Below, in pieces: positions 1 through 7,770 of a DNA stretch of 7,770 nucleotides; positions within the stretch are counted from its first letter, which is position 1; every line of letters starts with the position of its first letter. The stretch comes from an uncultured bacterium (GTDB lineage Bacteria; Armatimonadota; UBA5829; DSUL01). The translations under genes and the position numbers were made by a program. The notes below the pieces were generated by a model. The model saw nothing but the letters and a program-made list of their open reading frames with translations, was not told where the DNA came from and did no database searches. The stretch covers positions 1 through 7,770 of the forward strand of contig CALCJH010000308.1 of NCBI GenBank assembly GCA_937967775.1. The letters are read 5' to 3'.

Positions 1-330
1 TTTTACCAGATCCTGCTGCTCGGGGTCGTCCACCTTCAACTCCACGAAAGCGACCTTTCCCGCGAACTGCGGCGCCACTTTCGAGGCGATTTTCGACATC
101 TCCTGACACTGAGCGCACCAGTCCGAATGAGCCAGCACCCAAACCGGCCTGCCCTCAGGGATTGCCAGGGCTGAACTCTTCTGTGCAGCCTGAGAGGGCG
201 CGTGGAGTTCATGGTCAGCAGGCAGACCCGGGCAGCAGCTGCTGGAAGCCTGCTGAGGCCCGATGTTCTTCACGGCGGACAGGGCGGCCATCGCCGCGAT
301 GACACCAAGAATCAGAAGTTTCTGTCTCAT
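1..330 (-). CDS. Membrane-anchored thioredoxin-like protein (partial, C-terminus off the window)
   Basis: 110 codons are visible and the frame is still open at base 1. Residues 5-20 are a hydrophobic stretch (LLILGVIAAMAALSAV), either a signal peptide or a single membrane anchor, so the rest probably faces outward. Residues 61-100 look like the start of a thioredoxin fold: a beta strand (PVWVLAH), then the redox motif D-W-C-A-Q-C with Cys72 and Cys75, then a helix and the strand VAFVELKVDD. The ATG overlaps the arsR stop as ATGA, which implies translational coupling and membership of the permease-arsR operon. The likely role is a dithiol/disulfide helper in metal or arsenical handling; this is inferred from context. 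An adjacent cysteine pair (Cys32-Cys33, in SSSCCPG) between the anchor and the domain is unusual and could bind a thiophilic metal. No lipobox is seen. The family call is fairly safe, the role is not. Confidence 0.8.
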   Translation of the reverse strand, partial: MRQKLLILGVIAAMAALSAVKNIGPQQASSSCCPGLPADHELHAPSQAAQKSSALAIPEGRPVWVLAHSDWCAQCQEMSKIASKVAPQFAGKVAFVELKVDDPEQQDLVK

Positions 331-725
331 GAGGTCGCTTTTGTCCTCCTCATTTCTTCAACCCGGGAAGCAGAGGAAAGATTCGGCACCGCATCGGCGG
401 GCCACTCAACGGTCTTCGGGAACTCGTGGCCCGTCGCCGACAGGATCCGTTCCAACGTTTTATGAGCTTGCTCCAGCAACGCGGAGTTTCGCAGGGAGTA
501 AAACATCATCTGTCCCTCCCGGCGATGCCTCACGACACCGGCGTGCCGCAAAGTGGCCAGGTGATGCGACACCGTGGACTGAGGAAGCCCCAGCCGGGGC
601 ATGATGGCGCACACGCACAACTCTCCATCTTCGGCAAGAAGTCTGAGTATGCGCAACCTTGTCGTGTCTCCCAGAGCACGGAACAGCTCTGCCAGTTGCT
701 CCGGGGTTTCCATCAACTTATCCAT
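327..725 (-). CDS. arsR: ArsR/SmtB-family metalloregulatory repressor
   Basis: This 132-residue winged-helix repressor has the usual ArsR architecture: an N-terminal helix (ETPEQLAELFRALGDTTRLRILRLL), the alpha-3 metal site ELCVC with Cys37 and Cys39, a recognition helix (residues about 48-62, LPQSTVSHHLATLRHAG), and a wing (VVRHRREGQMMFYSL). The family binds operator DNA without metal and lets go when As(III)/Sb(III) or a similar soft metal binds. Escherichia coli ArsR has a third cysteine three residues after the second; here that position is Met42, so a two-thiol site is predicted. The residues after about 100 form an extra polar tail. The gene lies 57 bases downstream of the permease and overlaps the thioredoxin gene by 4 bases. 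There is no convincing Shine-Dalgarno before the ATG at 725, but a TATCAT box lies 8 bases upstream. A second in-frame ATG exists at 713. Confidence 0.93.
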   Translation of the reverse strand: MDKLMETPEQLAELFRALGDTTRLRILRLLAEDGELCVCAIMPRLGLPQSTVSHHLATLRHAGVVRHRREGQMMFYSLRNSALLEQAHKTLERILSATGHEFPKTVEWPADAVPNLSSASRVEEMRRTKATS

Positions 726-733
726 TTACTTTG

Positions 734-739
734 ATGATA
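734..739 (-). promoter_or_regulatory. Candidate -10 box giving a near-leaderless arsR transcript
   Basis: On the minus strand the hexamer TATCAT (5 of 6 match to TATAAT) is followed by 8 bases and then the arsR ATG. A transcript starting about 7 bases past the box would begin within a couple of bases of the start codon. No good -35 hexamer is found 16-18 bases upstream. This would give arsR its own internal promoter in addition to read-through from the permease. Confidence 0.35.
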
Positions 740-740
740 C

Positions 741-755
741 CACACGGACCGCGTG
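741..755. promoter_or_regulatory. Imperfect dyad between permease and arsR
   Basis: CACACGG - A - CCGCGTG forms 7-base arms with one mismatch around a single central base. It lies immediately upstream of the candidate arsR -10 box, where a repressor could block polymerase. It does not share the ATATCTG half-site seen before the permease, so it may be a site for another protein, or chance in GC-rich DNA. Confidence 0.25.
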
Positions 756-782
756 ATCGTTCCGGCAACTCTTCGATCGCTT

Positions 783-2081
783 TCAGGCCACGGCCCCGTA
801 AATCATGCCGGCGGCGGTTGCCATCACCACCACCAGCCCCACGAAAACGATCGTCTTGCGGGTGCCCAGGATGGATCTGATGACCAGCATGTTCGGCAGG
901 GACAGGGCCGGCCCGGCAAGGAGCAGCGCCAGCGCCGGACCTTTGCCCATACCGCTTCCTAGAAGCCCCTGCAGGATCGGCACTTCGGTCAGGGTGGCGA
1001 AATACATAAATGCGCCCACCACGGCTGCGAAGAGATTGGCCTGCAGACTGTTGCCGCCAACCGCCCTGGAGACCCATTCGGACGGAATGAGTCCCTCGTG
1101 TCCGGGCCTGCCCAGCAGGAGGCCGGCAACCAGCACCCCCATCAGGAGCAGCGGAAGGATCTGCTTTGCGAAGCTCCAGCTGGATTCGAACCAGCTGCCG
1201 GCCTCGTCCGTCCTGACGCTGGTGATGACACTGAGCCCGATGACGCCCACCGTGAACGGCGCCAGAGGCTCGTGCGGGACCAGCAGCGCCGTGACCGTGA
1301 CGGCCACAGCTGCAAGCGCCAGCTTCCAGGCCTCCACATTCATCCACAAAACCATCACCACTGCGAGCGCGGCGGCCGCAGCAGCAGTGATGGCCCATTT
1401 GGCGCTGTAAATGGCCGCCCAGGCGCCTGTCTGTACGGCGGGCTTTCCCCAGTTGGCGAACACCAGAATGGCCACCAGCAGGGCGAAGAAGACCGCGTTC
1501 TGCCACAGGGGTCGGACGGGATCGTCCTCCGGAAGCGCCATTGCGGCCTCGGCCCGGGTTTCTTCTTCCCTGCGAAAGATCAGATGCATCAACAGGCCAA
1601 TCACCACGCTGAAAGCCACTGCCCCCACCGCTCTGGCGATGCCCAGCTCCAGCCCCAGAACCCGGGCGGTCAGGATGATGGCCAGCACATTGATGGCCGG
1701 CCCGGAGTAAAGGAAGGCGGTCGCCGGACCCAGTCCCGCGCCCATACGGTAGATGCCCGCGAAGAGGGGCAGCACCGTGCAGGAGCAGACGGCCAGCAGC
1801 GTGCCGGAAACGGATGCCACCCCGTATGCGAGTAGGCGATTCGCCTTCGGCCCCAGATAGCGGATGACCGAAGCCTGACTGACGAATACCGCAATCGCTC
1901 CCGCAATGAAGAACGCGGGAATGAGGCAAAGCAGCACATGCTCGCGCGCGTACCATTTTGCCAGGTGCATCGCTTCCAGCACCGCTGTGTCGAACCGGGC
2001 GGTGCCGGCGGGCAGGAAGAAGAAGACAAGAAAGACGGTCGTGATGATGGCAAGCGGACGATATTCGATTTTCCAGTCCAT
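783..2081 (-). CDS. DUF318/ArsP-family permease (metalloid or organoarsenical efflux)
   Basis: This 432-residue polytopic membrane protein has about ten hydrophobic segments in two halves, separated by a charged cytosolic-looking loop (FRREEETRAEAAMALPEDD, near residues 169-188). The first half carries the family signature, the Cys99-Ser-Cys101 motif in AVCSCTVLPLFAGIYR followed by FLYSGPAINVLAIILT. The second half has a related repeat (TLTEVPILQGLLGSGMGKG, then LLAGPALSLPNMLVI). Proteins of this family (COG0701, Pfam ArsP_1) include ArsP, an exporter of trivalent organoarsenicals, and other metal-resistance permeases. The linked arsR and thioredoxin genes support efflux of a thiophilic metalloid, but substrate cannot be read from sequence. 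The ATG at 2081 is chosen because GGGAG lies 6 bases upstream. An in-frame ATG at 2126 falls inside the candidate operator and lacks a ribosome binding site. It is the first gene of the cluster. Confidence 0.85.
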   Translation of the reverse strand: MDWKIEYRPLAIITTVFLVFFFLPAGTARFDTAVLEAMHLAKWYAREHVLLCLIPAFFIAGAIAVFVSQASVIRYLGPKANRLLAYGVASVSGTLLAVCSCTVLPLFAGIYRMGAGLGPATAFLYSGPAINVLAIILTARVLGLELGIARAVGAVAFSVVIGLLMHLIFRREEETRAEAAMALPEDDPVRPLWQNAVFFALLVAILVFANWGKPAVQTGAWAAIYSAKWAITAAAAAALAVVMVLWMNVEAWKLALAAVAVTVTALLVPHEPLAPFTVGVIGLSVITSVRTDEAGSWFESSWSFAKQILPLLLMGVLVAGLLLGRPGHEGLIPSEWVSRAVGGNSLQANLFAAVVGAFMYFATLTEVPILQGLLGSGMGKGPALALLLAGPALSLPNMLVIRSILGTRKTIVFVGLVVVMATAAGMIYGAVA

Positions 2082-2110
2082 ACGTCTCTCCCTGGAGCTC
2101 TGGTGCGGAG

Positions 2111-2136
2111 CCAGATATCTGTTCATCCAGATATCT
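2111..2136. promoter_or_regulatory. Candidate ArsR operator: paired ATATCTG half-sites
   Basis: Two identical 10-mers CCAGATATCT lie at 2111-2120 and 2127-2136. Read as a dyad, ATATCTG (2115-2121) and CAGATAT (2128-2134) are perfect 7-base inverted arms around a 6-base spacer. The core AGATATCT is itself palindromic, so the site has both direct and inverted symmetry. It ends 30 bases upstream of the permease ATG. AT-rich dyads with ATAT half-sites near the start of the controlled operon are typical of ArsR/SmtB operators. No clear -35/-10 pair was found around it. Confidence 0.55.
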
Positions 2137-2179
2137 AGATGCTTTGATTATGGACTGAGATTCATTTTCCCGCTACTGA

Positions 2180-2195
2180 TGATCTCTGGAGATCA
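2180..2195. promoter_or_regulatory. Perfect 7-2-7 dyad upstream of the permease operon
   Basis: TGATCTC - TG - GAGATCA is a perfect inverted repeat lying about 45 bases upstream of the ATATCTG dyad, in the gap between the two minus-strand operons. Its size suits a dimeric regulator, but it does not match the proposed ArsR half-site and there is no T-tract to suggest termination. Function unknown. Confidence 0.3.
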
Positions 2196-2249
2196 AGGCC
2201 TCGAGGCGCCCTGTTCGGGCCGCATGGGAAAGGGAGGCCTTCCTTGCGA

Positions 2250-2285
2250 GAAAACCAGGGGCCGGCGCGTCTGCGCCGGCCCCTG
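2250..2285 (-). terminator. Intrinsic terminator ending the V4R-like gene cluster
   Basis: A perfect 13-base-pair stem (2273-2285 pairing with 2256-2268) closes a 4-base loop, and almost all of its pairs are G-C. On the minus strand the stem is followed by GTTTTC, a short U-tract. It begins 29 bases past the stop codon of the 218-residue protein and points the right way for that gene. It separates the middle gene cluster from the arsenic-type cluster transcribed in the same direction. Confidence 0.85.
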
Positions 2286-2314
2286 CGGACCGCGTCATCT
2301 TTGCCAGGCCAGGA

Positions 2315-2971
2315 CTAGGCGCGGGTCACCACGAACTCGCCGTATTCGTCCCCGCACTCGATCCCCTTCGTCTGGACGCACTTGAAAGTCCGCAGACCGG
2401 TCTGTCCGGTGGGATCATAAGGACCACCATAGGCCAGATCCATGAACGCGGCGCACACGCCCCGGACCATGAAAGCCGCCGGGCGCGACCGCTCTCCGTA
2501 TCGCACCACGTCTGCTTCGTAGTAGTCGTAGGCGTGCACCACCATCCGTTCGTTCGGGATGAGCTCAACCACTTCGCTCTTGGCCCAGCCCCACGCTGTG
2601 AAGACCGCGAAGGCTCCGTGGAGGACGTCCTCCGGCACACGCGTCACCATTGGGGCCACAATGGCGTTCCACTCATCGGAAGTAATGATGCCGTGACCGG
2701 TATGATAGCCGCACTCCTGGGCGGCGTTCACCAGCAGCCACTCGGCCGCTTCCACCAGATCCGGGCCCACCTTCCGTGTCAGCCGTTCCGAGAAGGAAGT
2801 CCAGAACCGTGCAGGCATCTGGTTCACGAAGACGTTGAAGGCCGGGATCAGCCCCTCGTCGTTGTTGATCACTTCCAGCTTCGAGAGAGCATCGATGATC
2901 TTCTTGCGGTCCACCGTGGTATACAGCGCGCTCACATACGGTGCCGTCTCGACTGCCCTGTTTACAGCCAT
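2315..2971 (-). CDS. V4R-like protein B (218 aa), function unknown
   Basis: The C-terminal part (about residues 135-216) resembles a V4R domain: a beta strand (EVVELIPNERMVVHAYDYYEA), a helix (AAFMVRGVCAAFMDLAYGG), and the closing C-x-QTKGIECGDEYGEFVV, which matches the V4R ending where a cysteine pair brackets a G-D. V4R domains occur in BchJ, in aromatic-sensing regulators and in other hydrophobic-ligand binders. The N-terminal half is mostly helical and holds a C-x2-H-x2-H cluster (Cys87, His90, His93), followed by GIITSDEWNAIVAPM. Further cysteines are Cys173, Cys198 and Cys206; metal binding is plausible but inferred. No signal peptide or membrane segment is seen. The ATG at 2971 is preceded by a perfect AGGAGG. 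A longer frame to 3103 only overlaps the upstream gene. It is last in the cluster, 16 bases after the 179-residue gene, and probably its partner. I do not recognise a named family. Confidence 0.85.
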   Translation of the reverse strand: MAVNRAVETAPYVSALYTTVDRKKIIDALSKLEVINNDEGLIPAFNVFVNQMPARFWTSFSERLTRKVGPDLVEAAEWLLVNAAQECGYHTGHGIITSDEWNAIVAPMVTRVPEDVLHGAFAVFTAWGWAKSEVVELIPNERMVVHAYDYYEADVVRYGERSRPAAFMVRGVCAAFMDLAYGGPYDPTGQTGLRTFKCVQTKGIECGDEYGEFVVTRA

Positions 2972-2987
2972 TGGTCGCCTCCTGTGC

Positions 2988-3527
2988 CTAGCTTGCCGAG
3001 ACCTCGAACTTCGAGGTATCAGCTCCTGCCACGATACTGCGGGTCTCCCGCACCTCGTAGGTCCTGGGCGCCCTGTCGAAAATGGCCGAGAACGCCCCCG
3101 CAACGAACCCGCCGGTCACGAAGTTCACGGGCTCCTCACGCTGCCCCCACTTCTTCACCCAGCCCTGGTCAATGTGCGATGCCAGAAGTTCCACCTCACC
3201 CGTCTCTGGTCCCGCACAGCGGATCTTCATCAGACCCAGCCCCATGGCCGCGTAGTACTCCTCGGCCACCAACACCCGCTCCGGGATGCCGGTAACCTGG
3301 TGTTCCGCGTAGTAGTCTCGCAGGATGTCGCAGAACGTGTCCTCTGCTACCTCGGCCATGAGCTTCTTGCCGTCCAGCATTCCGCAATCGTCGGCAAGCT
3401 GGGTGTAGAGCGTGGCAAAGTGGTGGCAGTGCAGGACGTACTGCTCGCCGTTTATGCTCTGGCGCGAAGAGCGAGGGTCATAATTGCGCTTCAGCACCAG
3501 GCCGTCACTCAATCTCATCGTCGTCAT
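2988..3527 (-). CDS. V4R-like protein A (179 aa), function unknown
   Basis: Residues about 110-177 fit the V4R pattern: a strand (EVELLASHIDQGW), a helix (NFVTGGFVAGAFSAIFDRAP), then EVRETR followed by SIVAGADTSKFEV. Ordinary V4R domains have cysteines where Ser164 and Ser172 lie here, so the usual terminal cysteine pair is lost. The N-terminal half is helical and contains a Cys-His-His motif (Cys34, His35, His36) in YVLHCHHFATLYTQLADDC, plus Cys48, Cys66 and Cys104. The product looks cytosolic. The start at 3527 follows GGGAG by 8 bases. The gene is 18 bases downstream of the 63-residue gene and 16 bases upstream of the 218-residue V4R-like gene, so the three are surely co-transcribed. A heteromer of the two V4R-like proteins is a reasonable inference. 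A hydrophobic or tetrapyrrole-like ligand would fit known V4R roles but nothing here proves it. Confidence 0.85.
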   Translation of the reverse strand: MTTMRLSDGLVLKRNYDPRSSRQSINGEQYVLHCHHFATLYTQLADDCGMLDGKKLMAEVAEDTFCDILRDYYAEHQVTGIPERVLVAEEYYAAMGLGLMKIRCAGPETGEVELLASHIDQGWVKKWGQREEPVNFVTGGFVAGAFSAIFDRAPRTYEVRETRSIVAGADTSKFEVSAS

Positions 3528-3545
3528 CGGACGTTCTCCCGTTCC

Positions 3546-3737
3546 TCAAGCTATGCCGGCGTCTTTGCCGGTGATCTCCTTAAATGCAGCCTTGAACTTG
3601 GCCAGGACCTCGGGTGTGTCCGCCTCCGAGGACGCCTTTACAGTGGATATCCCCGTCGCCATGGCCAGGCGCATCTGTGCGGACAATCCTCCCTCTTCCT
3701 TTGCCAGTTCGAAGAACTTGACCAGTTTTGCACCCAT
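3546..3737 (-). CDS. Small 63-residue helical protein, function unknown
   Basis: A short soluble protein with no Cys or His and high predicted helix content: KLVKFFELAKEEGGLSAQMR, then LAMATGISTVKAS, then a C-terminal helix TPEVLAKFKAAFKEITG. It has no membrane segment or signal. Its compositional sense and its place between the 92- and 179-residue genes, with only 18 bases to the next gene, argue that it is real and not a random frame. I start it at the ATG at 3737. A TTG 12 bases further upstream is in frame, but the purine-rich GAGAGGAG abuts it with no spacing, while from that purine run to the ATG is 12 bases, longer than usual. It may be an accessory subunit or adaptor of the adjacent V4R-like pair. 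I do not recognise the family. Confidence 0.7.
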   Translation of the reverse strand: MGAKLVKFFELAKEEGGLSAQMRLAMATGISTVKASSEADTPEVLAKFKAAFKEITGKDAGIA

Positions 3738-3783
3738 GGTCTTCTTCAACTCCTCTCGTCCGTGAAGGATCGTTTCTCACCGG

Positions 3784-3813
3784 CCCGGCGGGGCGGCAGG
3801 CATCCCCGCCAGG
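3784..3813 (-). promoter_or_regulatory. GC-rich hairpin inside the gene cluster
   Basis: On the minus strand 10-base arms (3804-3813 pairing with 3784-3793, one G-T wobble) close a 10-base loop in the only sizeable gap of the cluster, between the 92- and 63-residue genes. There is no T-tract after it, so it is unlikely to be a full terminator. An mRNA stability or processing element that sets different levels of enzyme and V4R-like subunits is possible. Confidence 0.35.
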
Positions 3814-3822
3814 GCCCGATAC

Positions 3823-4101
3823 TCACGAGAAATGCCTTTCCAGCCTTTCGATCACCTCCTGTCTGTCCTGCCGGGGAAGCACCACCTGGCAGGAGCGTTC
3901 GCCTTCCACTCCCCTCAACTGCGCCCCGCCCGGGCCGACAACCCGGAAGAAGGGGCGGGGGAAATCCGGATAGTAGTCCAGACGTCCAAGCTCCCCGAGC
4001 CGCCGGATCTCCTCCCGCGACCAGACGCTGTCGAAGAAATAGCGATAGACGCTGGACCCATCGAAACAGTCCTCCACCCTGACCGCCCTGAGGAGTTTCA
4101 C
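3823..4101 (-). CDS. Conserved-looking 92-residue protein coupled to the desulfurase-like gene
   Basis: The GTG start overlaps the stop of the upstream PLP-enzyme gene as GTGA, a 4-base overlap typical of translational coupling and of proteins that work together. The 92-residue product is soluble and mixed alpha/beta: an opening strand (KLLRAVRVEDCF), a helix (SREEIRRLGELG), the distinctive aromatic segment LDYYPDFPRPFFRVVG, a strand (QLRGVEGERSCQVVLP) and a closing helix (DRQEVIERLERHFS). Cys12 and Cys71 are its only cysteines and could be persulfide acceptors, which is an inference from the neighbour. I do not recognise a named family. A longer same-frame reading back to 4482 is just antisense-free overlap with the PLP-enzyme gene in another frame and is not used. 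Low-complexity or random-frame origin is unlikely given the clear segmental pattern and the start overlap. Confidence 0.75.
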   Translation of the reverse strand: MKLLRAVRVEDCFDGSSVYRYFFDSVWSREEIRRLGELGRLDYYPDFPRPFFRVVGPGGAQLRGVEGERSCQVVLPRQDRQEVIERLERHFS

Positions 4102-5264
4102 GCCGCGGCCTCTCCCTGCTCCGCGCGCGCGGCCGCCATTGCCCGGACGGCTGAAACGGCGGCTTCCACGTCGCTTTCCGTATTCGCCCCGGAGACGCTG
4201 AACCGGATGGTTCCATGCGGCGCGCTCCCGATCCAACGGTGGATCTCCGGCGCGCAGTGAAGCCCGGCCCGGCAGCGGATGCCAAAACACTCCTCCAGCA
4301 CGAGCGCCGCCTCGTCCGGCGGCCATCCCGCGATGGTAAAGGAGACCACACCGGTTCCCGCATCCTCCGGACATCCGGCATCGAACACGTGGACGCCCCG
4401 GATCTGCGAGAGGCTCCGGCGCAACAGGCTTCCCAGATCGCGCCGCCGCTGGCCCTCCAGCCGTCCGTCCGAGGCGGCCCATCTGAGGGCCGCGGCGAGC
4501 CCGGCCAGGCCGGGGGAGTTCGGCGTACCCGCCTCCAGGCGCATCGGCATTTCATCCGGCTGCAAAGGCAGATCGCTCCGGACGCCCGTTCCGCCGCTCA
4601 GGACAGGCGGCAGGTCCATTTCGGGTGAGACATAGAGCCCGCCTGTACCCTCCGGCCCGCACAGGCCTTTGTGCCCTGTGAACGCCACCATCTGCGCGCC
4701 GATCTCCAGCGGCCGCACGGGAAGAACACCCAGGGTCTGGGAAGCGTCCAGCAGAGTCAGGGCTCCGGCCCCGCGCGCCAGTCTGAACAGCGTGGCGGCG
4801 TCATTCACCCTGCCGGTCACGTTAGAGGCGTGATTCACCACGACAAGATCCGCACCGCCAGCGAGCGCCTTGGCGAACTGTTCCAGGTCCACCTGACCAT
4901 CGCCGGTCAGCCCAACCACACTCAGGCGGATGGCGCCCTGCCGTTCCAGATGCCGCAGAGGCCGAAGCACGCTGTTGTGCTCCGTGGCGGTGGCAACCAC
5001 GCTGCGCACACCCGTCTGCACGCAACCCAGGATGGCGATGTTCAGCGCGAGCGTAGCGCCGGAGGTCAGCACGATTTGGCCGGGCCACGGAACACCCATC
5101 AGCCCGGCCAGCAGCGACCGGCACTCATCCCGCGGATCCGTGTCGTGCCCGGAGCCGCGACCGGGTTCCGCGGGCATCGCCTTCACTGCCCTGCGGACCG
5201 CCTCGGCCACGCCGGGGGCCTTCGGCCAGCTGCTTGCCGCGTTGTTGAGGTAGATGGATGTCAT
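4098..5264 (-). CDS. Class V aminotransferase-fold enzyme, cysteine desulfurase/selenocysteine lyase-like
   Basis: This 388-residue PLP enzyme of fold type I carries all expected landmarks: N-terminal IYLNNAASSWPKAPGV, His96 in ATEHNS stacking on PLP, Asp173 in LLDASQTLG, the Schiff-base Lys199 in FTGHKGLCGPEG, the RLEAGTPNSPGLAGL substrate loop, and a candidate catalytic Cys337 in RAGLHCAP. Cysteine desulfurases take sulfur from cysteine as a protein persulfide and leave alanine; relatives act on selenocysteine. The short N-terminus and the PGRGSGH region resemble the TIGR01977 subgroup, whose exact role is not settled. It is probably cytosolic. The ATG at 5264 follows GGAAGG by 4 bases; the TTG at 5279 is less likely. 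The gene heads a five-gene cluster and shares a 4-base overlap with the next gene. No scaffold (SufU, IscU) or SelD gene is in the window, so a dedicated sulfur or selenium role is suggested, not shown. Confidence 0.88.
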   Translation of the reverse strand: MTSIYLNNAASSWPKAPGVAEAVRRAVKAMPAEPGRGSGHDTDPRDECRSLLAGLMGVPWPGQIVLTSGATLALNIAILGCVQTGVRSVVATATEHNSVLRPLRHLERQGAIRLSVVGLTGDGQVDLEQFAKALAGGADLVVVNHASNVTGRVNDAATLFRLARGAGALTLLDASQTLGVLPVRPLEIGAQMVAFTGHKGLCGPEGTGGLYVSPEMDLPPVLSGGTGVRSDLPLQPDEMPMRLEAGTPNSPGLAGLAAALRWAASDGRLEGQRRRDLGSLLRRSLSQIRGVHVFDAGCPEDAGTGVVSFTIAGWPPDEAALVLEECFGIRCRAGLHCAPEIHRWIGSAPHGTIRFSVSGANTESDVEAAVSAVRAMAAARAEQGEAAA

Positions 5265-5471
5265 CGTGCCTTCCCGCAAACCAGTATCGGGAAGGCATTA
5301 CCCGTGCTTGAGACTCGAACCAGAAAAAAACAATATCTGCAAGAAGGCGAGAATATTACCTCTTCATCGCGCGGAAAAACCGCAGTGCACATCAGGATTC
5401 GTTGGCCACAGGGTCTGGTCGGCGCTGCGTCCGACCCGGCCACGGTCCGGTTGCTGGAATCGAAGCGGCGG
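5265..5471. other. Intergenic region with probable promoter of the middle cluster
   Basis: This gap between queG and the desulfurase-like gene includes a locally AT-rich stretch at 5322-5358. On the minus strand TAATAT (5353-5358) could be a -10 box, giving a leader of about 80 bases; no clear -35 is seen. A run of seven T follows at 5324-5330 without a stable GC stem before it. A 6-base-pair inverted repeat (5417-5422 with 5431-5436) lies just past queG but has no T-tract, so queG termination is uncertain. One ATATCTG heptamer, the half-site of the candidate ArsR operator, is present at 5333-5339 but has no partner. Confidence 0.4.
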
Positions 5472-6599
5472 TCAGCCCTGCGCCGCGCGGATCTCTGCCA
5501 GAACGTCCGGATCGGGTTCGCGTGTGAGGCGTTTCTGCAGGATCTCCAGGCCCTTCGGGTCGCCGATGCGTCCCAGCGCCCAGGCGGCGTGGGCGCGCAC
5601 TACCGAACTTGGGTCGTGAAGAGCCTTCAGCAATGCGGGCACGGCGGATGAATCACCGATGTTTCCCAGGGCGACACAGGCGTTGCGGCGGAGGCGGTTT
5701 CGCCCGATCCATCCGGGAGAACCCCTCTTCAGAGAGGTCTCAAACTCGGCCTGTGTCATCTCCAGCAACCAGATGAGATCCGGAAAAGCCGGCACGGGGC
5801 CGGGCTCGAAATCTGAGGGATCTCCCGGAACGGCCGCCGCGTTGTGGGGACAGACTTCCTGACAGATGTCGCAGCCGTAGATCATCGTGCCCATCAGGGG
5901 GCGCAGCTGGCGCGGGATGATACCGCTCATCTGAGTGAGGTGCGATATGCAGCGGTTCAGATCTATCTCGAACGGCGAGACAATGGCTCCCGTGGGGCAG
6001 GCCGCCAGGCAGAGCTCGCAACTGCCACAACGGTGGTCCGGAGAAGGCTCATCAAAGGGCAACTCCACGTCGGTGACGATCTCCCCGAGGACCACCCAGC
6101 TCCCGGCCTCTCCCGTGAACACGCAGGCGTTTTTCCCGGCCCAGGCCAGCCCGCTCGCCAGCGCGGCGGCGCGGTCCATCAGCGGCCCCGTATCGCACAA
6201 GACGCGCGTGGAGCAACCGGGAGCCAGTTCCTTCAGACGGGCCTCCACCACCGAGAGCTTCTCTTGCATCACAAGATGATAGTCCCTCCCGCGGGCGAAT
6301 CGGGCAGTCACTCCGCACAGGCTCTCTGGCGGGGGTGCAGGTGGGTCCGAGGGCCGCAAATACGACAACGCGCAGCAGATGACGGACTTCGCTCCGGGCA
6401 GCAGTGTGTCCGGACGGCAGAAGCGCTCCTCACTGCCTTCCGTTAGCCCGTAGTGGCCGGCGAACCCTTTCGCCACGCGTTCGCGCAGACGGCGGGCAGC
6501 CTCCTCCAGCGGGCGCGCGGGCCCTACGGCCAAACCGGTGAGTCCGGCCCGGCTGGCGCATATCCTGAGCTCCGCAACAATCCGCACGGCATCCATCAT
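5472..6599 (-). CDS. queG: Epoxyqueuosine reductase QueG
   Basis: This 375-residue cytosolic enzyme carries out the last step of queuosine synthesis, reducing epoxyqueuosine in the wobble position of GUN-anticodon tRNAs with cobalamin and two 4Fe-4S clusters. Visible landmarks are the conserved Asp136 in CDTGPLMDRAAA with LAWAGKN after it, the ferredoxin-like motif C-G-S-C-x2-C-x3-C-P (Cys191, 194, 197, 201), Cys217, and the second motif YGCDICQEVCPHN (Cys243, 246, 250). The C-terminus (about 300-370) has two HEAT-like units, NACVALGNIGDSSAVPALLKAL and AHAAWALGRIGDPKGLEIL, as usual in the family. Length matches the family. Two adjacent ATG codons (6599 and 6596) are candidates. Neither has a Shine-Dalgarno, but a TACAAT box lies 6 bases before the first, which suggests a leaderless message. 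It is divergent from the dehydrogenase gene. No other queuosine gene is in the window. Confidence 0.95.
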   Translation of the reverse strand: MMDAVRIVAELRICASRAGLTGLAVGPARPLEEAARRLRERVAKGFAGHYGLTEGSEERFCRPDTLLPGAKSVICCALSYLRPSDPPAPPPESLCGVTARFARGRDYHLVMQEKLSVVEARLKELAPGCSTRVLCDTGPLMDRAAALASGLAWAGKNACVFTGEAGSWVVLGEIVTDVELPFDEPSPDHRCGSCELCLAACPTGAIVSPFEIDLNRCISHLTQMSGIIPRQLRPLMGTMIYGCDICQEVCPHNAAAVPGDPSDFEPGPVPAFPDLIWLLEMTQAEFETSLKRGSPGWIGRNRLRRNACVALGNIGDSSAVPALLKALHDPSSVVRAHAAWALGRIGDPKGLEILQKRLTREPDPDVLAEIRAAQG

Positions 6600-6605
6600 T
6601 TGAGC

Positions 6606-6611
6606 ATTGTA
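6606..6611 (-). promoter_or_regulatory. Candidate -10 box for leaderless queG transcript
   Basis: TACAAT on the minus strand lies 6 bases upstream of the first of two tandem ATG codons of queG. Transcription starting 7 bases past the box would begin at the A of that ATG. No -35 hexamer of quality and no Shine-Dalgarno are present, which is the usual layout of leaderless bacterial promoters. Confidence 0.5.
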
Positions 6612-6710
6612 ACCCGGCCGGGGAGGAGCAGTGCGCAGGCGCGCAGAAACGGCCGATGGACGAGATAGCCGGTGGACTCCGGGGCTACCTCCGGAGAGCG
6701 TTTCTTGTGC

Positions 6711-6716
6711 CATAAT
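6711..6716 (+). promoter_or_regulatory. Candidate extended -10 box for the dehydrogenase gene
   Basis: CATAAT preceded by TGC fits an extended -10 (TGn + 5 of 6 matches). It lies 28 bases before the GTG at 6745, leaving room for a short leader with GAGGAG at 6728-6733. No good -35 is seen. A 6-base inverted repeat (CTCCGG at 6677-6682 with CCGGAG at 6691-6696) lies just upstream. Confidence 0.4.
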
Positions 6717-6744
6717 CCCGACCCTGTGAGGAGCCCTGCCAAGA

Positions 6745-7746
6745 GTGCCTGAGAAAGTCGCCATCCTGATATCCAACGAACTCCGGCGCGACATCTTCGA
6801 TGACGCTAGCTGGGAGAGCCTGCTGCGCGTTGCTGAGCCCGTCCTGCCCGTCGCCCCCGGACCGGTGACGGCAGAGATGGCGAGGGATCTTCTGCGCGGA
6901 GCCCGCGCCTGCATCACTGGATGGGGAAGCCCTGCCCTCACGGCAAACGTTCTGGCGGAAGCGGACACGCTGGGCCTCATGGCGCACGCCGCGGGAAGCG
7001 TGAAGGCGTTCGTGAGCGACGCGCTCTGGGAGAAGGACATCCGCGTGACCAGCGCGGCGCCGGCGCTGGCCATTGATGTGGCCTGGACCACCGTCGCCCT
7101 GATGGTCCTGGCGAGGAAAAACGTCTTCCTGTTGCGGGAGCATATCCGCCAAGGCGGCTGGAAGCCGATGCCGGGCTGGCCGTCCGGCGAGCTGTACGGC
7201 GCGGTGGTCGGACTGGTGGGCGCAAGCAACGTCGGCCGCCACGTGATCCGCCTGCTGGACGGCTCGGGAGCCAGGATCCTGCTCTACGACCCGTATGTGT
7301 CCGCCGAGGAAGCTGCCCGCCTGGAGGTGAAGAAGCGGGAATCGCTGGAGGATCTCATCCGGGAGTCCGACATTGTGAGTCTGCATGCTCCAAAGCTGCC
7401 GGAGACTTACCACATGCTAAACGCCGGAAACCTTGCCTTGATGAAGGATCATAGCATCCTCATCAATACGGCGCGCGGTGCACTGATTGACGAGGCGGCG
7501 CTGATCGAACTGTTGCGGACCCGTCCCATCTTCGCCTGTCTGGACGTCACGGACCCGGAGCCTCCCGCGCCGGACAGCCCGCTTCGGACGATGCCGAACG
7601 TTCTGCTGACGCCGCACCTGGCGGGGTGTGTGGGGAGCGGTCTGAAGCGGCTGGGCGCGGCAGCCGCGGACGAGGTCCGCCGTTTTCTGGCCGGCGAGCC
7701 GCTCATAAACGAGGTGACCCGCGAGATGCTTCCGCGTCTGGCCTAG
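6745..7746 (+). CDS. D-isomer-specific 2-hydroxyacid dehydrogenase
   Basis: A 333-residue NAD(P)-dependent oxidoreductase of the formate/glycerate dehydrogenase superfamily, which interconverts 2-hydroxyacids and 2-ketoacids. The N-terminal catalytic half is followed by an inserted Rossmann domain from about residue 150 (ELYGAVVGLVGASNVGRHVIRLL). Catalytic residues line up: Arg244 in LINTARGALIDE, Glu272 in LDVTDPEPP and His291 in LTPHLAG. The nucleotide loop reads G159-A-S-N-V-G164, so the middle glycine of the usual GxGxxG is Ser. An acidic residue (Asp182) after the second strand (ILLYDPY) favours NAD over NADP. The GTG at 6745 is the first start with the full fold. The GAGGAG before it is 11 bases away, a long spacing. 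Substrate is unknown; phosphoglycerate, glyoxylate or hydroxypyruvate are all possible. It is divergent from queG with no sign of functional linkage. Confidence 0.93.
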   Translation: MPEKVAILISNELRRDIFDDASWESLLRVAEPVLPVAPGPVTAEMARDLLRGARACITGWGSPALTANVLAEADTLGLMAHAAGSVKAFVSDALWEKDIRVTSAAPALAIDVAWTTVALMVLARKNVFLLREHIRQGGWKPMPGWPSGELYGAVVGLVGASNVGRHVIRLLDGSGARILLYDPYVSAEEAARLEVKKRESLEDLIRESDIVSLHAPKLPETYHMLNAGNLALMKDHSILINTARGALIDEAALIELLRTRPIFACLDVTDPEPPAPDSPLRTMPNVLLTPHLAGCVGSGLKRLGAAAADEVRRFLAGEPLINEVTREMLPRLA

Positions 7747-7770
7747 CGGCTTAGGGGCGTTATTCCGCGT

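Follow-up and report, generated by a model that had tools for sequence, protein, structure and literature searches.

The 7,770-nt contig CALCJH010000308.1 of an uncultured Armatimonadota bacterium (assembly GCA_937967775.1, 2.43 Mb, 69% complete), analysed here in its entirety (the window), carries five adjacent genes that recur as a cassette in bacteria of many phyla. They encode a pyridoxal phosphate (PLP) cysteine desulfurase-like enzyme (DES), two small proteins of no known family (P92 and P63) and two V4R-like proteins (VA and VB). We tentatively interpret the cassette as a stand-alone V4R sensor complex that would be loaded with sulfur by its own desulfurase and would feed varied signalling outputs. 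V4R domains are known as input domains within regulators; what is new here is this known way of sensing in a free-standing, sulfur-linked form. The cassette itself goes beyond chance, as seen from its linkage in 65 loci and from an empty site in a sister species.

A recurrent five-gene cassette

The five reading frames all lie on the minus strand in the order DES, P92, P63, VA, VB (aa, amino acids):

5264-4098, minus strand: DES, PLP cysteine desulfurase-like, 388 aa from ATG; Aminotran_5, nearest NCBIfam model TIGR01977, under cut-off
4101-3823, minus strand: P92, 92 aa, GTG start, no known family; 4-base overlap with DES
3737-3546, minus strand: P63, 63 aa, no known family; conserved MRLAM and Asp40
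3527-2988, minus strand: VA, V4R-like, 179 aa, invariant HCHH at 33-36
2971-2315, minus strand: VB, V4R-like, 218 aa, ECGYHTG motif at 86-92; profile match to VA
2285-2256, minus strand: intrinsic terminator after VB, 13-pair stem (12 G-C), then GTTTT
2081-5471, no strand: segment missing at the syntenic place of the same-genus genome L127, which has 464 bp there (blastn)

For DES, an in-frame TTG is also present at 5279. A first-pass annotation, made from the sequence alone, had described five genes on one strand with a 4-base overlap, gaps of 16 bases (VA-VB) and 18 bases (P63-VA) and a strong terminator at the end of the unit. All of this was found as claimed; the terminator region folds, as a 76-nt RNA, at −43.6 kcal/mol (z −3.44). 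The accompanying description of tight packing holds for the overlap and these two gaps, but not for the stretch between P92 and P63, which are 85 bases apart.

Loci with the cassette were collected by scanning genome contigs with the VB profile and two exact peptide patterns, a procedure that recovers close relatives only; open reading frames (ORFs) in the loci were defined by a simple longest-ORF rule, with no gene finder. This produced 65 loci from 19 named phyla, the candidate divisions Riflebacteria, KSB1 and Aminicenantes and two further bacteria; one locus is archaeal. VA adjoins VB in 63 loci, and the other two (L056 and L060) begin inside VB. P63 was detected in 50 loci, P92 in 45 (six of them retaining P92 without DES) and DES in 40; all five genes are present in 31. 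P63 was called by tblastn, and some of the 15 loci scored as missing it have only a divergent copy, as seen by clustering in L010, L042 and L047.

The order of the window, with the DES-P92 half ahead of the P63-VA-VB half, is seen in 21 loci, and in 19 the DES-P92 half comes after; the two halves have thus been rearranged yet kept together. Neighbourhoods in which the desulfurase pair and the V4R pair are not linked had been named in advance as a finding that would speak against a unit; instead, the two are linked in 40 of the 65 loci, in two orders. Together with the 63 loci where VA adjoins VB, this already refutes a chance neighbourhood of unrelated genes, whose probability we regard as negligible. 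Distance matrices correlate for all ten gene pairs (r 0.42-0.80; 0 of 500 permutations as high), a correlation that shared descent alone can partly explain.

VA, VB and the desulfurase pair

The kinship of VA to V4R is strongly supported by two lines of evidence: a fold search, in which the model of VA takes the same fold as the V4R domain with which MopR/PoxR/DmpR sense phenol, and profile comparison with V4R (96.8%, E 2.3e-10). VB matches VA in profile comparison (89.0%, E 2.4e-6); these profiles support VB as a distant relative of VA, and its kinship to V4R is supported only through VA. The claim of two different V4R-like proteins therefore stands firmly for VA and, for VB, by way of VA. 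Neither protein reaches the cut-off of the Pfam V4R family (PF02830): VA scores 12.8 bits (cut-off 31) and VB gives no match. Sequence searches of the PDB with the VB and VA profiles returned three and zero matches up to E 10, none usable.

A protein search at E 1e-3 found 220 relatives of VA and 1,560 of VB, with no Pfam domain among the 120 listed for each. VB is unusually conserved: identity is ∼70% or more among its 120 listed relatives, and the alignment has Cys87 in 63 of 64 rows (one gap) and His90 in 62. The VA-VB pair of L066 (3361-4482), which diverges most (VB 38% identical), overlaps with the beginning of a gene for a PAS histidine kinase.

The zinc ligands of DmpR are three Cys (Cys151, Cys177 and Cys185) and one Glu (PMC7264223). 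In the V4R alignment, on which the Glu and the last two Cys were placed, the Glu aligns with Glu161 of VA (61 of 62 rows), while the last two Cys fall at Ser164 (Ser in 52 of 62, Cys in 3) and Ser172 (Ser in 52 of 62, Cys in 1). Judged by this alignment, the zinc cysteines of MopR/PoxR/DmpR are not kept in VA. VA also has conserved His118 (59/62) and Trp123 (62/62), which may or may not correspond to the His/Trp dyad holding the phenol hydroxyl in MopR-type sensors. The phenol sensors differ further in architecture: there, XylR_N and V4R domains are fused to an AAA+ activator, whereas VA and VB are separate small proteins with no further domain and no AAA+ or DNA-binding fusion, accompanied by a desulfurase and two unknown proteins.

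DES was described in the first-pass annotation as a PLP cysteine desulfurase-like enzyme, and the alignments bear this out. It matches Pfam PF00266 with 210 bits, and the catalytic residues are present in nearly all rows (His198 and Lys199 in 42 of 42, Cys337 in 40 with two gaps); DES thus keeps the PLP lysine and active-site cysteine of a cysteine desulfurase of the class V aminotransferase fold. It aligns at full length with TIGR01977 (EF2568; 322 bits) and with the SclA-type model (230 bits), and differs from both kinds of enzyme in staying below their cut-offs (377 and 525 bits), in its gene company and in forming its own lineage. In the desulfurase tree (the L025 match omitted, ORFs above 430 aa trimmed to the last 400 residues), one branch (94/93) separates the 41 cassette enzymes from the 13 further desulfurase-like enzymes that cassette genomes encode, which further ties the desulfurase to the V4R pair.

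P92 has four invariant residues (Cys12, Phe47, Pro50 and Gly64), with Cys12 in all 45 rows. It has 541 relatives at E 1e-3, with no Pfam domain among the 120 listed, and reaches no family cut-off in Pfam or NCBIfam. For P63, with Asp40 in all 53 aligned rows, NCBIfam gave nothing beyond a weak hit to the GSU3128 family (14.9 bits; cut-off 110). Both small proteins thus stay unrecognised, as first described. A search of 27 genomes for P92 outside the loci showed it absent from 16 of the 18 genomes whose locus is without P92; the genomes of L032 and L064 have it elsewhere. A second DES-P92 pair sits apart from the V4R genes in the genomes of L018, L025 and L064, so the pair can travel alone.

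The nearest models, TIGR01977 and then SclA, might suggest a selenium pathway, with DES as a selenocysteine lyase-type enzyme that supplies a labile-selenium cofactor. EF2568 is reportedly linked to selenium-dependent molybdenum hydroxylases. We consider this pathway very improbable: selD is above cut-off in 19 of 49 cassette genomes (many assemblies are incomplete), and in the tree cassette DES enzymes stand apart from the selD-neighbouring enzyme L104. The earlier idea of selenium feeding accordingly found no support. In the genome of L017 (contig C3), a TIGR01977-like desulfurase has selD at a distance of ∼1 kb and falls outside the group of cassette enzymes.

A known defence system was also considered and rejected, with DES giving only generic desulfurase matches to PADLOC models (SspA 143.6 bits, DndA 134.7 bits). 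The cassette resembles SspA/DndA systems of DNA phosphorothioation in having a dedicated desulfurase in a patchily distributed unit; it differs from Dnd/Ssp in that P92, P63, VA and VB match no PADLOC model.

Signalling neighbours and the sensor reading

Same-strand neighbours of the cassette are often signalling genes. Among the first upstream genes (n = 56), signalling genes make up 23 of the 41 on the same strand and none of the 15 on the opposite strand; the figures for first downstream genes are 8 of 31 and 0 of 25. For distal genes, four or more away, they are 21 of 257 overall and 11 of 115 on the same strand. The calls were made with nine query proteins taken from the neighbours themselves; without the eight queries that are first neighbours, the difference is 23 of 64 versus 0 of 40 (p 3e-6). 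A signalling gene is among the two nearest same-strand genes in 35 of the 65 loci.

Pfam searches covered 41 of 41 upstream and 29 of 31 downstream same-strand genes and 37 of 40 opposite-strand genes, with the best 25 of 69, 70 and 86 families considered, respectively. MCPsignal and the receiver domain were found six times each upstream, and five times and twice downstream; neither is among the 25 families listed for opposite-strand genes, where CheW and SpoIIE occur once each. Chemoreceptor-like, response-regulator, CheW-like and roadblock groups recur beside the cassette in at least five loci. The outputs vary, including chemoreceptors (e.g. L004), response regulators, roadblock proteins, hybrid kinases (L027 and L028), a PAS kinase (L066), a Cache-SpoIIE phosphatase (L019) and a PAS cyclase (L041). 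Loci with DES and loci lacking it show the excess to the same degree (22 of 40 and 13 of 25); it is larger when DES is last (13 of 19) than when it is first (9 of 21). L040 has, at 7395-8825 between a response regulator and P63-VA-VB, an iron-only hydrogenase-like protein with Fe-S domains that could be a sensory hydrogenase.

The first-pass annotation had proposed a sulfur-dependent cofactor or ligand-handling complex. The desulfurase and the two V4R-like proteins indeed form one unit, but the signalling context, which had not been foreseen, moved the reading from a cofactor pathway to a sensor; the tetrapyrrole ligands suggested at that time got no support. V4R domains are believed to take up hydrophobic ligands and pass the signal on to effectors in cis or trans (PMC2253512), and a receptor acting in trans fits a free V4R pair recurring beside many kinds of output. 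VA and VB would form a complex binding a ligand or a metal-sulfur centre, with a site made of HCHH of VA and Cys87/His90 of VB. DES, working with P92, would load this complex with sulfur from cysteine, Cys12 of P92 being the putative acceptor of sulfur from DES. P63, as we guess from its size and position, may connect the complex to whichever signalling protein is at hand, so that the complex could act on chemoreceptors, kinases, cyclases, phosphatases or response regulators. For the organism of the window, the gene of the partner would lie elsewhere in the genome; one chemoreceptor is encoded away from the cassette.

Several observations weigh against this sensor reading. For 30 of the 65 loci, including the window and its closest relatives (L002, L003, L005-L007, L009 and L010), neither of the two nearest same-strand genes is a signalling gene, and some first neighbours are unrelated (an OPT transporter, SMC-like and histidyl-tRNA synthetase-like proteins). 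Neither VA nor VB was seen fused to a signalling domain. The direct profile comparison of VB with V4R proteins is weak (13.7%), and the AlphaFold model of VB, at a predicted local distance difference test (pLDDT) score of 42.6, is unusable. Finally, DES is absent from the locus in 25 of 65 cases, and 14 genomes show no DES-type enzyme at all; sulfur loading therefore cannot be essential everywhere, and the sulfur link is a frequent, not an obligatory, part of the cassette.

Names of sulfate reducers or sulfur oxidisers occur in 7 of these 14 genomes versus 2 of the 41 DES-bearing rows, window included (p 0.0005), in a comparison made after the fact with lifestyle labels set by hand from names. 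Since the labels were so set and at least five of the seven genomes (L011, L016, L024, L050 and L052) belong to one clade of the VB tree, the link between missing DES and sulfide-rich life is only a hint. Presence of DES changes seven times on the VB tree (at least five changes forced); this is an upper reading, because labels were given by locus and L018, L025 and L064 have DES-P92 elsewhere in the genome.

A metabolic unit, in which DES, P92, VA and VB produce or alter a sulfur compound and the signalling genes close by do no more than regulate this metabolism or respond to it, seems to us rather unlikely. It would agree with the catalytic Lys and Cys kept in DES, with the single invariant Cys of P92 and with the lack of a signalling neighbour at the window's copy; however, signalling groups recur beside the cassette in at least five loci and no further family of enzymes, transporters or ligases does, and the 14 genomes mentioned above have VA and VB without a DES-type enzyme. 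It is also unlikely, in our view, that the cassette lies on the output side, with neighbouring kinases and chemoreceptors sensing through Cache or PAS domains of their own while the V4R complex acts as a downstream effector or scaffold, like Bet3-type V4R proteins in TRAPP. In the fold search, TRAPP Bet3-type V4R proteins and archaeal TRAPPC3 score lower against VA than MopR does, and the cassette differs from them in being a bacterial operon with signalling genes and a desulfurase.

The sensor reading can be carried further, to a version that we consider unlikely as a whole. Here an exchangeable soluble two-V4R receptor, with a metal-sulfur or persulfide centre made by its own desulfurase, would report sulfur or redox state to chemoreceptors, kinases, cyclases and phosphatases in many phyla, and cells living amid sulfide would dispense with DES. 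No paper pairing V4R proteins with a desulfurase was found in full-text searches of open-licence papers, and the earlier statement that the unit matches no described pathway agrees with the profile libraries and literature searched. If the sensor reading is true, a shared input device stands beside very different outputs in ∼20 phyla, its ligand not sought in the papers found. VA with HCHH, VB with ECGYHTG and P92 with Cys12 are concrete targets for direct biochemistry, and naturally occurring variants that have or lack the desulfurase can be compared.

The site without the cassette

The same-genus genome L127 has its 464 bp in place of 3,391 bp of the window that include the cassette. By blastn, window positions 4-2080 match L127 6018-8096 and positions 5472-7770 match L127 8561-10860, with DNA identity of 86.5% and 78.7% on the two sides. 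The flanking proteins are kept in L127: QueG (90% identity), a 2-hydroxyacid dehydrogenase (89%) and an ArsP-type permease (93%). With syntenic flanks and the cassette absent, the five genes behave as one unit apart from their surroundings; the conserved gene order also speaks for correct binning of the contig.

Among related genomes the cassette is uncommon, being present in 1 of 61 relatives and in 3 of the 291 genomes from the phylum, this organism's own among them. The data do not distinguish gain from loss. Segment 2081-5471 and the 464 bp of the sister have no word of at least 12 bases in common; accordingly, neither a scar nor the end of a mobile element was recognised. Comparison of G+C content between cassette genes (56.8-69.3%) and flanking genes (58.4-66.1%) gives no sign of foreign origin.

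A wider metal-resistance island, comprising the ArsR gene, the permease and the thioredoxin-like protein, was dismissed, since the sister species carries these genes but no cassette. They occupy window positions 1-2126 (minus strand), outside the cassette and syntenic in L127, and encode a thioredoxin-like protein with WCAQC, an ArsR/SmtB regulator and an ArsP_1 permease. On the other side, at 5472-6602 (minus strand), lies the gene of the epoxyqueuosine reductase QueG, which has C-terminal HEAT repeats.

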